64,000 nt of DNA from Nitrosomonadales bacterium (GTDB lineage Bacteria > Pseudomonadota > Gammaproteobacteria > Burkholderiales > Gallionellaceae), in NCBI GenBank assembly GCA_023259055.1, contig JAHFQZ010000003.1, positions 1 through 64,000 of the forward strand. Direction: 5' to 3'. Shown here piece by piece: positions 19,955 through 52,688 of this stretch. Below the pieces are notes generated by a model. The model worked only from the letters and a program-made list of their open reading frames with translations, was not told where the DNA came from and did no database searches. Position 1 is the first letter of the stretch. Each line of letters begins with the position of its first letter. A program made the translations under genes and the position numbers.

Positions 19955-20012
19955 ATAACCAGCGACTTGGCTGGCGTCTTTTGCCAGCTTAGTCGAATGG
20001 CTAGTTGTTTCA
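19955..20012. repeat. 58-bp palindromic element, intergenic copy
   Basis: Runs from ATAACCAGCGACTTGGCTGG to TAGTTGTTTCA. It carries the inner hairpin GCTGGC-GTCTTTT-GCCAGC. Two further copies lie in frame inside dinG and the ATP-grasp gene; there the hairpin is GCTGC...GCAGC, a compensating base-pair change. Confidence 0.88.
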
Positions 20013-20108
20013 TCTAGTCCTCGCCGAAACCCCCTGACCAGCCTGCGCTACTCGGCGGCGCACAGGGAAAAAATCCAAAACCCAAAACCCAAAAAACATC
20101 AAAAAGCC

Positions 20109-38442: not shown

Positions 38443-40491
38443 CTACCCGTCGATAGAATTTCCCCCAAGCTGTTCTTGCGTAGAAGTCGCAGTACTAAAA
38501 AAACCTACCGCTTCCGCTTCCACCCGCGTCCGCTTGAATGGCGGCAAACTCTGCCAGATGCGCTTGCCATAGTGCTTGGTAATGATGCGCGGGTCGCAGA
38601 TCATCAGCACACCTCGGTCGGTTTCATCGCGGATCAAGCGCCCGGCACCCTGCTTCAGTGTGATGATCGCGCGCGGCAACTGGTATTCCATGAACGCGTT
38701 GCGCCCCTGTTTCTTCATCTGTTCGAGGCGTGCTGCCAGCACCGGGTCGTCCGGCGGCGCGAACGGCAGCTTGTCGATGATAACCAGCGACAGCGCCTCG
38801 CCGCGCACGTCCACCCCTTCCCAGAACGATTGGCTGCCGAGCAGCACCGCGTTGCCGTGTTCGCGGAAACGCGACAGCATTTCGTTGCGCGAGCCTTCGC
38901 CCTGCAGCATCAGCGGGTAGCTCCAGCCGCGACGGTCGAATTCCGCCTGCAAAATTTCATGGGCACGCTGCATCGCGCGCAAGCTGGTGAACAGCAGGAA
39001 GGCGCGCCCTTTGCTGGCCTCGATCAGCGGCAGCGCCGCCTGTACCACCGCCTCGGTGTAGCCCTCGGTGTTTGGTTCCGGCAGGCCGGTCGGCACATAC
39101 AGCAGCGCCTGCTCGGCGTAGTTGAACGGGCTGTCCCAGCACGCGGTCTTCGCGTTGAGCAGCCCCATCTCGCTCTGGTACAGCGAAAAATCCTGCTTCA
39201 CCGCCAGCGTCGCCGAAGTAAAAATCCACGCGCGCGCGCTGCCGCCGATCTGCTTCTCGAAAATTTCGGCGATCGACAACGGCGTGGTGTTCAGTTGCAG
39301 CGAGTGATGGAATATTTCCAGCCAGCGTACAAAACCGTCCCCCTCACCCGGTGGGATAACCAGTGACTTGGCTGCGGTTTTTGGCAGCTTAGTCGAATGG
39401 CTAGTTGTTTCATTCAGAGGGGGTGCTTCACCCATCCACTGCTCGAGTAGCCACGCCAACGCCTGCCCCCGCTTCCAGCAATTCTCCAGCCCCTCGCTCC
39501 GCTCCGCCTGCTTCTCCAGCAGACCATTCAATTGCGCGATCTTTTCGCTGAGCGTCTTCAGGGCGTTTGGCCACTCCTTGAAACTATCAAGCGCCGTCGC
39601 GGGCATCCGCCCTTCTTTCTTGAATACCAGCCGCAAATCGCGCGCGGCCTTGTCCAGTTCGTCACAAGCCTTCGGCAGCGGTGCGAAATCCTTGGCGGCA
39701 GCCGCCGTCTCGATGCGCGTGTCGGTGGCGAGTTCAAGCAGCAGAGTGGTGGAAAGGCTCTCGCCGAAAAACAGGCTGGCGGTCTCCGGCAGCTGGTGCG
39801 CCTCGTCGAAGATCACCGTGTTGCAGGCCGGCAGCAGCTCCGCCACGCCCTCGTCGCGCAACATCACGTCGGCAAAGAACAGGTGATGGTTCACCACCAC
39901 GACATCCGCCTTCATCGCCTCAGAGCGCGCCTTGAGCACGAAGCATTCCTTGTGGTTGGGGCATTCCTGTCCGAGGCAGTTGTCGCGTGTCGATGTCACT
40001 TGCATCCAGATCGGCGCATTCTCAGGCACGTCGGCCAGGCTGCCCTTGTCACCCGAGTCGCTGACCTTCGCGTATTGTTTGATCTTGCCCAAATGCTTTA
40101 TGTCCTCGCGCGTCTTGAACATCCCGTCCGATTCCGTGCGTGCCAGATGGTAATGGCACACATAGTTAGAGCGCCCCTTGAGCAGTGCCACCGAAACTGG
40201 AGCCTTCAGCGCGTCGCGCACCATCGGCAGGTCTTTCTGGAACAACTGGTCTTGCAGGTTCTTCGTGCCGGTCGAGATGATCACCTTGCCGCCTGCGAGT
40301 AGCGCTGGAACCAGATAGGCGAATGTCTTGCCGGTGCCGGTGCCAGCCTCGACCACCAGAATTGAGTTGTCGCGGATCGCCTCGGCCACTGCCAGCGCCA
40401 TCTCGCGCTGCTGCGTGCGCGGGCGGAACGACGCAACTTCAGCGGCAAGCGGGCTTTGTTCGGAAAAAAAACGTTCGACTTCGGCAGACAC
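38443..40491 (-). CDS. dinG: DinG/YoaA-type ATP-dependent DNA helicase with an inserted repeat
   Basis: XPD-like superfamily 2 helicase with an iron-sulfur cluster. The Walker A is EAGTGTGKTFAYLVP, the cluster cysteines lie in NYVCHY and NCLGQECPNHKECF, the Walker B is FDEAHQLPET, and GSQSFWEGVDVRG and KQGAGRLIRDETDRG are motifs V and VI. It probably unwinds R-loops or damage structures. Residues 361-380 (ETTSHSTKLPK...) are encoded by a 57-bp palindromic element also found in two other places, so the helicase carries an extra in-frame peptide between the iron-sulfur domain and the second RecA domain. It resembles YoaA in size apart from the insertion. Confidence 0.9.
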   Translation of the reverse strand: MSAEVERFFSEQSPLAAEVASFRPRTQQREMALAVAEAIRDNSILVVEAGTGTGKTFAYLVPALLAGGKVIISTGTKNLQDQLFQKDLPMVRDALKAPVSVALLKGRSNYVCHYHLARTESDGMFKTREDIKHLGKIKQYAKVSDSGDKGSLADVPENAPIWMQVTSTRDNCLGQECPNHKECFVLKARSEAMKADVVVVNHHLFFADVMLRDEGVAELLPACNTVIFDEAHQLPETASLFFGESLSTTLLLELATDTRIETAAAAKDFAPLPKACDELDKAARDLRLVFKKEGRMPATALDSFKEWPNALKTLSEKIAQLNGLLEKQAERSEGLENCWKRGQALAWLLEQWMGEAPPLNETTSHSTKLPKTAAKSLVIPPGEGDGFVRWLEIFHHSLQLNTTPLSIAEIFEKQIGGSARAWIFTSATLAVKQDFSLYQSEMGLLNAKTACWDSPFNYAEQALLYVPTGLPEPNTEGYTEAVVQAALPLIEASKGRAFLLFTSLRAMQRAHEILQAEFDRRGWSYPLMLQGEGSRNEMLSRFREHGNAVLLGSQSFWEGVDVRGEALSLVIIDKLPFAPPDDPVLAARLEQMKKQGRNAFMEYQLPRAIITLKQGAGRLIRDETDRGVLMICDPRIITKHYGKRIWQSLPPFKRTRVEAEAVGFFSTATSTQEQLGGNSIDG
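39353..39412. repeat. 57-bp palindromic element in frame inside dinG
   Basis: The core runs from ATAACCAGTGACTTGG to TAGTTGTTTCA. It differs from the copy in the ATP-grasp gene at 4 of 57 positions. It carries a hairpin GCTGC...GCAGC and is preceded by a small stem (CCCGGTGGG). On the minus strand it is read as ETTSHSTKLPKTAAK..., the same frame as in the other gene. Confidence 0.92.
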
Positions 40492-51335: not shown

Positions 51336-52688
51336 TCATTCTACAACACGCGCCAGCGCAAAACCGCCGCCCGGCGTACGGAAGTTGGTCGTCTGCCCTT
51401 GGTACAGCCTTGCGGCAACCAGCTGTACCTGTCCGTCGTAAACGTAGCAGCGCACGTCATATTTCAGCGATACTGTTTCTGTATCGTTAACGCAGATGCT
51501 GCGTTCGCCCGGCGCGGCCATGCGCTGTGCGACATAACCACCCTGCATGATCTCCTCGAACACCCGCTTGGTGAGTTTTGCGCCGCTGTAGCTGCCCTTG
51601 CTGCCGTAACCCATAGCAGGCTTGAAGAACCATTGCTTGCGTTCCTGCCACCATTGCTCATGGTCTGCCGCCTCTACCTGCCGGGTCTGTGGCACGCCTG
51701 CCTCCAAGGTAGCAATGTCGTCTTCTCTTGTGCCGAGTGCACTTAGCGCTTCAGCATCGGTCAGCCGCGCCAGATTGCGCTTGTCGGCATAGCGGACAAA
51801 GTGCGCGGGATCGGGCGTCATCACCACGGTGCCGTCCAGAAATGCCTGCCGCAACATGGGATGCTGCAGCAGGGAGAAATCCGTCAGACGGTTGTACACC
51901 ATGTCGATTTTCTGGCCATCGAGAAACAACCCATCGCCGCGCGAATGCAGTATGGCGGGATCGACGATATAAGTCGCAATCCCGGAGCGCTCGAACATCC
52001 GCTGCGCCAGCAGAAATTCTGGATACAGGTATTGCGCTTCCGGCTGTTCGTCCACGATGGCGACGCGATCGAGCTCTGCCTCGCCGCGTGCCAGACGCCA
52101 CTCGTTGCGGAACATCTCGAGGAAGACGTGATCGAGGCTCTTCTCCGTTCGTGCTGAGCCTGTCGGAGCATGAACGGGCGAAGCACCAGAAAACGATGTG
52201 TTGCGCTGGCTGTCGATCAGCAGTGAATTCAGGAATCCGCCGCCTGCATTGGTATTGATCTCGATCAGATGCGCGCCGTCGCTGTTCAGATGGAAGTCAT
52301 AGCCATAGAACACGCCAAGGGATTGAAAATTGCTTTTCACGTTTGCCTCATCTCCCGCTTGCGGGATAACCAGCGACTTGGCTGCGGTTTCTGGCAGCCT
52401 AGTCGAATGGATAGTTGTTTCACCCAGAGGATTGAGGAGAGGGGCTTGCAGGGAAGAGGCACCCCACCCCGGCAGTGCCACCACCCGTTCCACCGCATCG
52501 ATCACATCGCGCATCTGCCTCATCTGTGCAGCCGTTATAAACACTGCTACATCGGCAAACAAATGCGGGCAGCGCTCTCTCGTCAAACCATACCACGCCT
52601 CGCCTTGCGCCTGCATTGTCAGTTGCAAGGCGGGATGATCCAGCCTTGCCGCATGACCATCCGCATTCAGCCGTTCTGCTTCTGTCAC
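51336..52688 (-). CDS. Circularly permuted ATP-grasp protein with two inserted repeats
   Basis: 450 residues. The order of ATP-grasp parts is reversed: the metal-binding segment YDFHLNSDGAHLIEINTNAGG (about 130-150) comes before the nucleotide-binding segment WFFKPAMGYGSKGSYSGAKL and the final DVRCYVYDGQVQLVAARLYQGQ. This suggests a circularly permuted ATP-grasp ligase; the substrate is unknown. Residues 90-109 (ETTIHSTRLPE...) come from the element also in dinG, and about 171-182 (VHAPTGSARTE) from another palindrome. The start is GTG, overlapping the upstream stop (TAGTG). The frame stays intact, so the gene is probably functional. Confidence 0.68.
   Translation of the reverse strand: MTEAERLNADGHAARLDHPALQLTMQAQGEAWYGLTRERCPHLFADVAVFITAAQMRQMRDVIDAVERVVALPGWGASSLQAPLLNPLGETTIHSTRLPETAAKSLVIPQAGDEANVKSNFQSLGVFYGYDFHLNSDGAHLIEINTNAGGGFLNSLLIDSQRNTSFSGASPVHAPTGSARTEKSLDHVFLEMFRNEWRLARGEAELDRVAIVDEQPEAQYLYPEFLLAQRMFERSGIATYIVDPAILHSRGDGLFLDGQKIDMVYNRLTDFSLLQHPMLRQAFLDGTVVMTPDPAHFVRYADKRNLARLTDAEALSALGTREDDIATLEAGVPQTRQVEAADHEQWWQERKQWFFKPAMGYGSKGSYSGAKLTKRVFEEIMQGGYVAQRMAAPGERSICVNDTETVSLKYDVRCYVYDGQVQLVAARLYQGQTTNFRTPGGGFALARVVE
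52145..52177. repeat. 33-bp palindrome CCGTTCGTGCT...AGCATGAACGG in frame inside the ATP-grasp gene
   Basis: Two 11-base arms with one G.T pair surround GAGCCTGTCGG. The intergenic copy at 19752-19783 has similar arms. It is translated here as VHAPTGSART without breaking the frame. Confidence 0.88.
52363..52422. repeat. 57-bp palindromic element in frame inside the ATP-grasp gene
   Basis: The core matches the dinG copy at 53 of 57 positions. It is preceded by CCCGC-TT-GCGGG and contains GCTGC...GCAGC. It is in the same orientation and frame relative to translation as in dinG, giving ETTIHSTRLPETAAK. Confidence 0.92.

Follow-up and report, generated by a model that had tools for sequence, protein, structure and literature searches.

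The element in the helicase gene and its copies in the window

The window, by which we mean the whole stretch of 64,000 nt analyzed here, holds three copies of a short palindromic element, one of them in frame in a gene for a YoaA-type helicase and a second in frame in a gene of 450 aa. Each older repeat that a copy interrupts is given as two halves, named in gene orientation. The features are as follows, with the basis of each in parentheses.

38443..40491, minus strand: host gene, a YoaA-type DEAH helicase of 682 aa (NF053712, 893.7 bits, cut-off 680)
39356..39415, minus strand: 60-bp palindromic element in frame in the yoaA-type gene, encoding NETTSHSTKLPKTAAKSLVI (BLAST, RNA model, orthologues)
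39338..39355, minus strand: 3′ half of the older palindromic repeat interrupted in yoaA (limits by eye; repeat peptides in the linker of orthologues)
39416..39431, minus strand: 5′ half of the same yoaA repeat (limits by eye; the coding strand has CT at the junction)
51336..52688, minus strand: 450-aa gene that hosts the second copy (33 of 37 genomes of the genus have an orthologue)
52366..52425, minus strand: second in-frame copy, in the 450-aa gene, encoding GETTIHSTRLPETAAKSLVI (exact empty site in L075)
52343..52365, minus strand: 3′ half of the interrupted CCCTCTCCCGCAAGCGGGAGAGGG-type repeat in the 450-aa gene, itself in frame (limits by eye)
52426..52447, minus strand: 5′ half of the same CCCTCTCCCGCAAGCGGGAGAGGG-type repeat (limits by eye)
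19955..20014, minus strand: third copy, in no ORF of at least 150 codons open for 30 codons on both sides (BLAST, covariance model)

The original prediction of an in-frame element in the helicase gene, with near-identical copies elsewhere in the window, was borne out: BLAST of the region within the window aligned the element with 52363-52422 (93.3% over 60 bp) and with 19955-20013 (91.5% over 59 bp). The YoaA and 450-aa genes read it in identical orientation and frame, as had also been claimed, which gives the two peptides listed above. The minus-strand sequence of the yoaA copy is GAATGAAACAACTAGCC...GGTTAT. Its extent is the RNA model match (39356-39414) plus one 5′ G from comparison with the 450-aa gene; the ends are set at 39356-39415 because the exact, orthologue-defined ends of the copy in the 450-aa gene were applied. 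By orthologue comparison, then, the unit is 60 bp rather than the 57 bp first proposed. Two gene labels also changed: the host, first called dinG, scored best as YoaA, and all DinG models fell below their own cut-offs on the 682-aa protein; the label ATP-grasp for the 450-aa gene gained no support from Pfam or NCBIfam (no family at E ≤ 0.001). Rfam at its gathering threshold returned three matches in the window and none at the element.

Copy number, taxonomic range, and hairpin structure

With the yoaA copy as query, BLAST returned 35 matches in the source genome at E < 0.001, so the similarity is not due to chance. A covariance model built from 30 copies gave 74 matches at E ≤ 1 in this 2.6-Mb genome, 66 of them at E ≤ 0.0024, a count that covers 150 of 1000 first-look candidates, so that 66 may be a lower bound. 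The possibility that the genome holds no further copies is thereby excluded. Among 61 genomes, the element was present in 35 of 37 from the genus (source genome included) and in one of the 24 others; 10 of 200 genomes of the order carried it at E ≤ 1e-5, and of these ten, two come from a different genus within the family and six from three other families. A pattern scan of named genomes found at least 118 stretches. Among the matches listed, 51 of 80 named records were Gallionella, Gallionellaceae, or Gallionellales, followed by Nitrosomonadales (16), Sideroxydans (4), Ferrigenium (2), Sulfuricella (1), and Sulfuricaulis (1), and five were titled Proteobacteria or Betaproteobacteria only. The element is very probably a non-autonomous mobile DNA hairpin dispersed through iron bacteria that, to go by these record titles, are of Gallionella type.

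The strand GATG...GGTTAT folds into an outer stem of 7 bp, a one-sided 5-nt bulge (usually CATTC), and an inner stem of 11 pairs with a usual A.A mismatch, and the loop is 7 nt long. The stem covaries: 30 copies contained 27 cells with changes on both sides, whereas shuffling gave a mean of 6.5 and none of 500 shuffles was as high. In the same 30 copies, 88.3% of stem cells were paired, and three of the 18 stem pairs failed in 9 to 13 copies. Of the 30 copies, 29 have T.G at one outer pair, and 8 have G.T at another; because T.G and G.T pair on the GATG...GGTTAT (coding-sense) strand only, that strand is probably the folded one.

Across 148 copies, the unit is usually 60 bp, with a minor form of 54 bp and a range of 52-61 bp, and in 135 of them its length is divisible by three. 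The same holds for 48 of 53 copies in no open ORF, so the multiple of three is intrinsic to the element and not the result of a gene filter; the GlnE copy of the source genome, 59 bp by the junction rule, runs counter to this argument. The first tetranucleotide is GATG in 81 of the 148 copies, GTAG in one, and CGTC in none. A subtype has one extra 5′ base and one fewer loop base, so that its halves are re-phased (+1/−1), with the ETTSHST frame read in the first and the AKSLVI frame in the second. In YoaA of genome G019 (L045), a copy has a doubled 5′ leader (GATGGAACTACT GGTGAAACTACT), as if a nested copy's outer remainder had been lost.

Insertion sites, orthologues, and host genes

We compared the 450-aa gene with its orthologue in genome G015 (L075), which reads ...CAATCCTCT|CCCGCAAGCGGG... 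(CCTCT|CCCGC) where the source genome holds exactly 60 extra bases. No target duplication was found at the exact empty sites (450-aa gene and GlnE orthologues). The two bases before the junction were CT in 124 and TT in 14 of 148 copies (background 5.4% and 6.6%, respectively), which are not all independent events, as copies in related genomes may be orthologous. The junction rule shifts CTG-flanked copies by one base, because the exact empty site in the 450-aa gene requires it. Raw counts before re-registration were CT 108, TG 16, and TT 14 of 162; the sample went from 162 to 148 when self-nested misregistered copies were taken out, a stricter locus-end distance was applied, and the duplicate key was changed.

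The element often sits inside older palindromic repeats, and it also nests in its own copies, splitting ACT|AGCC. The joined flanks recurred in at least two other loci for 72 of 148 copies vs. 52 of 444 control CT sites, and their hairpin potential was slightly above that of the controls (median −8.2 vs. −7.2, P = 0.004). A general preference for hairpin-forming targets is weak, and the signal from recurring target sequences is stronger. A short non-autonomous unit that prefers palindromic repeats, which some insertion sequences target too (PMC1525189), could also be a DDE-type MITE or a derivative of IS110 (bridge-RNA), but the exact empty sites carry no target duplication and the IS110 family PF02371 had no match in the source genome at E ≤ 0.001; we regard such an origin as quite improbable.

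A further possibility is that gene conversion or ectopic recombination between the older repeats spread the copies, with the element carried along as a hitch-hiker. Of the seven in-gene copies in the source genome, four belong to a single subtype (13-nt leader, short loop), the GlnE copy shares that short loop, and all five lie at CT|CCC junctions, as this explanation would suggest; however, local peculiarities of the flanks in the 450-aa gene are kept almost to the junction, and the many dissimilar target sequences have little but CT in common. There is, in our estimate, about as small a chance of this as of selection on the peptide, considered below.

Orthologues without the element are the large majority in the four genes compared (YoaA 28 of 30 loci, 450-aa gene 29 of 30, MurE 28 of 30, GlnE 28 of 30). 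In YoaA (30 loci of 36 genomes), two loci have the element, seven have other in-frame repeat peptides in the same linker (L046-L052, seven species), and 21 have a short linker; given those seven, the linker is a recurrent landing place. The 450-aa gene (30 loci of 33 genomes) has the element in the source genome only, and L075-L078, L080, and L084 have the older repeat or a related one without it. In MurE (30 loci of 35 genomes), the element is present in the source genome and in G031 only, as copies of different subtypes in related repeats; G016 has the older repeats without the element, and the remaining 27 loci lack it, a few of them with short extra segments, of which the one in L264 resembles a repeat remnant. 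MurE of G016 (L253) also shows a CCCTCTCCCGC-type repeat copy that appears nested in another, in frame.

GlnE (30 loci; 35 genomes matched) has the element at two loci, repeats only at three, and neither at 25. In G007 (L284), the element interrupts a repeat at CTCTCT|CCCGC, and the source genome (L281) and G016 (L282) have this repeat intact; in the source genome, the element lies at another point of that repeat region, at which L282 and L284 are empty, their empty counterpart being close and not base-exact. Two species thus have GlnE copies at different points of a single repeat, and in G031 (L285) the peptide is absent at both points. The reading frame of L285 has an in-frame TGA, possibly an assembly error. 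Among the orthologues compared within the genus, wherever the DNA repeat is absent the peptide is absent too. The empty sites refute the reading of the peptide as an ancestral protein segment that looks palindromic by accident, or as a chance similarity; the identical type of DNA occurs in intergenic places and unrelated genes and most orthologues lack the segment, leaving a probability that is close to nil.

We then counted the host genes. Of the 66 source-genome copies, 12 fall within ORFs that have at least 150 codons and stay open for 30 codons on each side. Seven of these twelve belong to conserved genes, where the ETTSHST frame is always the one used (YoaA, the 450-aa gene, MurE, GlnE, MoeA, and two hybrid histidine kinases); MurE, GlnE, MoeA, and the two hybrid kinases are hosts with Pfam domains. 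For the other five of the twelve, coding use is uncertain (L009, two in L018, L362, and a weak 45-nt match in L355). In relatives, 20 of 50 listed ORFs of at least 230 codons were scanned and judged by domain positions. The element lies inside or between domains in PolA (L173), GlnE (L174), MutS (L229, L160), ComEC (L167), and CysRS (L207), with a thioredoxin-domain protein (L172), a GAF/HD-domain protein (L221), and an AAA/SPOR protein (L192) as further hosts. LpxK (L151), YgjP (L218), and CobD (L208) are probably hosts also, each with two matched stretches of which the position is known for the better one only. In the MutS proteins of the two relatives, the element is at two different places in two different frames, and a frame other than ETTSHST is used in MutS L229 and in ComEC L167.

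Left out of the in-gene count were, in relatives, IPPT (L149), the CoaBC-like (L248), GspD-like (L224), and FtsX-like (L145) proteins, a radical SAM protein (L157), a UvrD-like protein (L205), a VWA protein (L231), and an AcrB end (L189), and in the source genome LolA (L007), a pseudopilin (L018), a restriction subunit (L020), L008, and L009, because the element precedes the first domain or one side is free of domains, and translation may start after the element.

Judged from the reading frames, in-frame copies would add a similar stretch of ~20 residues to unrelated proteins, some of them acting in the cell wall or DNA repair. The AlphaFold model of MurE (28 orthologues) has a mean pLDDT of 84, with residues 258-292, which include the insert, below 50 and the rest confident; the insert is predicted to be disordered. 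The YoaA model is poor (pLDDT 59.9) and places the insert in coil between two predicted helices.

These peptides might have been selected for a function (e.g., as a soluble linker, in regulation, or in targeting) that drives retention in genes. All seven gene copies of the source genome use a single frame, and the gene-enriched subtype joins a first half in one peptide frame to a second half in the other. This re-phased subtype lies in long forward ORFs in 10 of 15 copies vs. 29 of 91 of the main type, which we take as a hint only because some copies in the sample were retrieved with a gene copy as query. Against selection stand the large majority of insert-free orthologues, the lack of a pathway common to the host genes, the other frame used in relatives, and the predicted disorder of the MurE insert, and we consider it improbable.

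Mobilization and relation to known elements

We searched for an enzyme that could mobilize the hairpin. TnpAREP proteins cleave at CT, and in E. coli the CT dinucleotide is cleaved with a requirement for the folded strand with its bulge (PMC8266576). The CT 5′ junction of our copies matches TnpAREP-type CT joining, as a footprint in sequence. We tentatively propose, at somewhat less than even chances, that a Y1 (RAYT-like) HUH transposase acting in trans cuts the element and joins it while it is a folded single strand. The source genome has five PF01797 genes, one of them a clear RAYT (NF047646, 190.8 bits, cut-off 80) and four below the cut-off. The rank correlation between element candidates (first-look) and Y1 matches was weak (37 genomes: 0.28, P = 0.09; 22 near-complete genomes: 0.48, P = 0.02). 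Lagging-strand transposition might give an orientation bias, so its absence (26 of 50 copies on the G-rich strand; 50 of 66 copies, with local GC skew as proxy) counts against Y1. So do the five of 37 genomes that have copies without a PF01797 match, the only slightly raised hairpin potential of the joined flanks, and a first tetranucleotide that resembles GATG rather than GTAG.

No Y1 gene was consistently flanked by the element: 3 of 34 Y1 loci had a copy within ~1.5 kb, at inconsistent positions, and for the loci covered we reject a cis-linked REPtron. In the source genome, a single Y1 gene has a copy next to it (L035), and this copy appears to interrupt another palindrome; in the G033 case (L127) the copy is on the opposite side of the gene; neither was retained as a linked pair. 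By eye, the Y1 gene at L035:1456-2040 (source genome C4, ~150.5 kb) itself seems to carry in-frame repeat peptides (AIHESPLPS, GRFMNRP).

The element could instead be a further REP/BIME-type family mobilized by its cognate RAYT (a REPtron). The junction is the one published for TnpAREP (PMC8266576), the imperfect hairpin has a bulge, the source genome has its PF01797 genes with one clear RAYT, and element and Y1 numbers are weakly and positively correlated in near-complete genomes. Yet the GTAG and CGTC tags are absent but for the single GTAG copy, the Y1 genes lack consistent flanking copies, PF01797 had no match in five of 37 genomes with element copies (two of the five 99% complete), and the unit of 52-61 bp is above the 20-40 bp of REPs (PMC3733652). 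We give this origin appreciable weight, somewhat short of one half.

Compared with GTAG/CGTC REPs, the element shares the hairpin form, the intragenic copies, and residence in other palindromes; intragenic REPs are described, many in replication and repair genes, and some REPs lie inside other palindromes (PMC3733652). It differs in being untagged and longer, with a one-sided 5-nt bulge and no linked RAYT at the 34 Y1 loci. With the TnpAREP/RAYT system it has the CT junction and the bulged hairpin in common, whereas its first tetranucleotide is GATG-like and not GTAG. Small mobile sequences that have reading frames or are intragenic are also known as enterobacterial RU elements and Coxiella MITEs (PMC2759123; PMC5896051); RU elements measure 103-168 bp, in contrast to the single 60-bp hairpin without target duplication found here.

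A close counterpart in behavior is the Rickettsia palindromic element (RPE), described as dispersed palindromic DNA in frame in unrelated genes, to which it adds a conserved peptide (PMC3733652; PMC10969869). The present element is likewise palindromic, dispersed, and in frame within unrelated ORFs, to which it adds a predicted peptide; it differs in its lineage, and the CT junction and nesting in other repeats are features of the Gallionella-type element. An RPE is given as ~150 bp in PMC10969869, but size makes no clean difference, because PMC3733652 equates RPE-4 and RPE-6 with short REPs. The element works like an RPE; we set it beside the Rickettsia family by the published descriptions and claim no membership. 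The RPE-like spread and in-frame residence that had been anticipated hold up, with genus-wide copies, exact empty sites, and copies located within conserved genes, either in a domain or between two. In-frame palindromes being already known from RPEs and intragenic REPs, the element is a variant of a known concept. The main text of the REP paper PMC3733652 has no occurrence of Gallionella or Sideroxydans, the main texts of the 2025 REP survey PMC12306157 and of PMC6006769 do not mention Gallionella, and no paper on such an element in Gallionella was found among the top-ranked open-access journal papers.

We propose that insertion leaves no target duplication, normally occurs directly behind a CT dinucleotide, and often falls within older palindromic repeats or other copies of the element. 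Because the unit is usually a multiple of three and its main orientation has two stop-free frames, a copy that enters a coding repeat within a protein linker would add ~20 codons and leave the gene unbroken. Most gene insertions would be purged, and those in flexible linkers would survive as nearly neutral passengers. This explanation as a whole, a mobile hairpin with CT insertion and in-frame residence in linkers, is in our judgment highly likely. A bolder version is rather unlikely, namely that the element is a protein-invading selfish hairpin whose length and open frames evolved for life in genes, with older in-frame repeats as landing pads, with a gene-dwelling subtype re-phased (+1/−1) that keeps a soluble ETTSHST...AKSLVI linker, with selection acting on the folded DNA as well as on the peptide, and with an undescribed transposase.

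Mobile palindromes in frame are best known from Rickettsia, with REP cases in several other bacteria (PMC3733652). Here, one lineage of iron bacteria shows base-exact alleles before and after insertion, a defined junction, an intrinsic multiple-of-three unit, and layered insertions, in hosts that include MurE, PolA, MutS, and CysRS. How mobile DNA contributes new protein segments, and whether these are no more than tolerated, thereby becomes directly testable.
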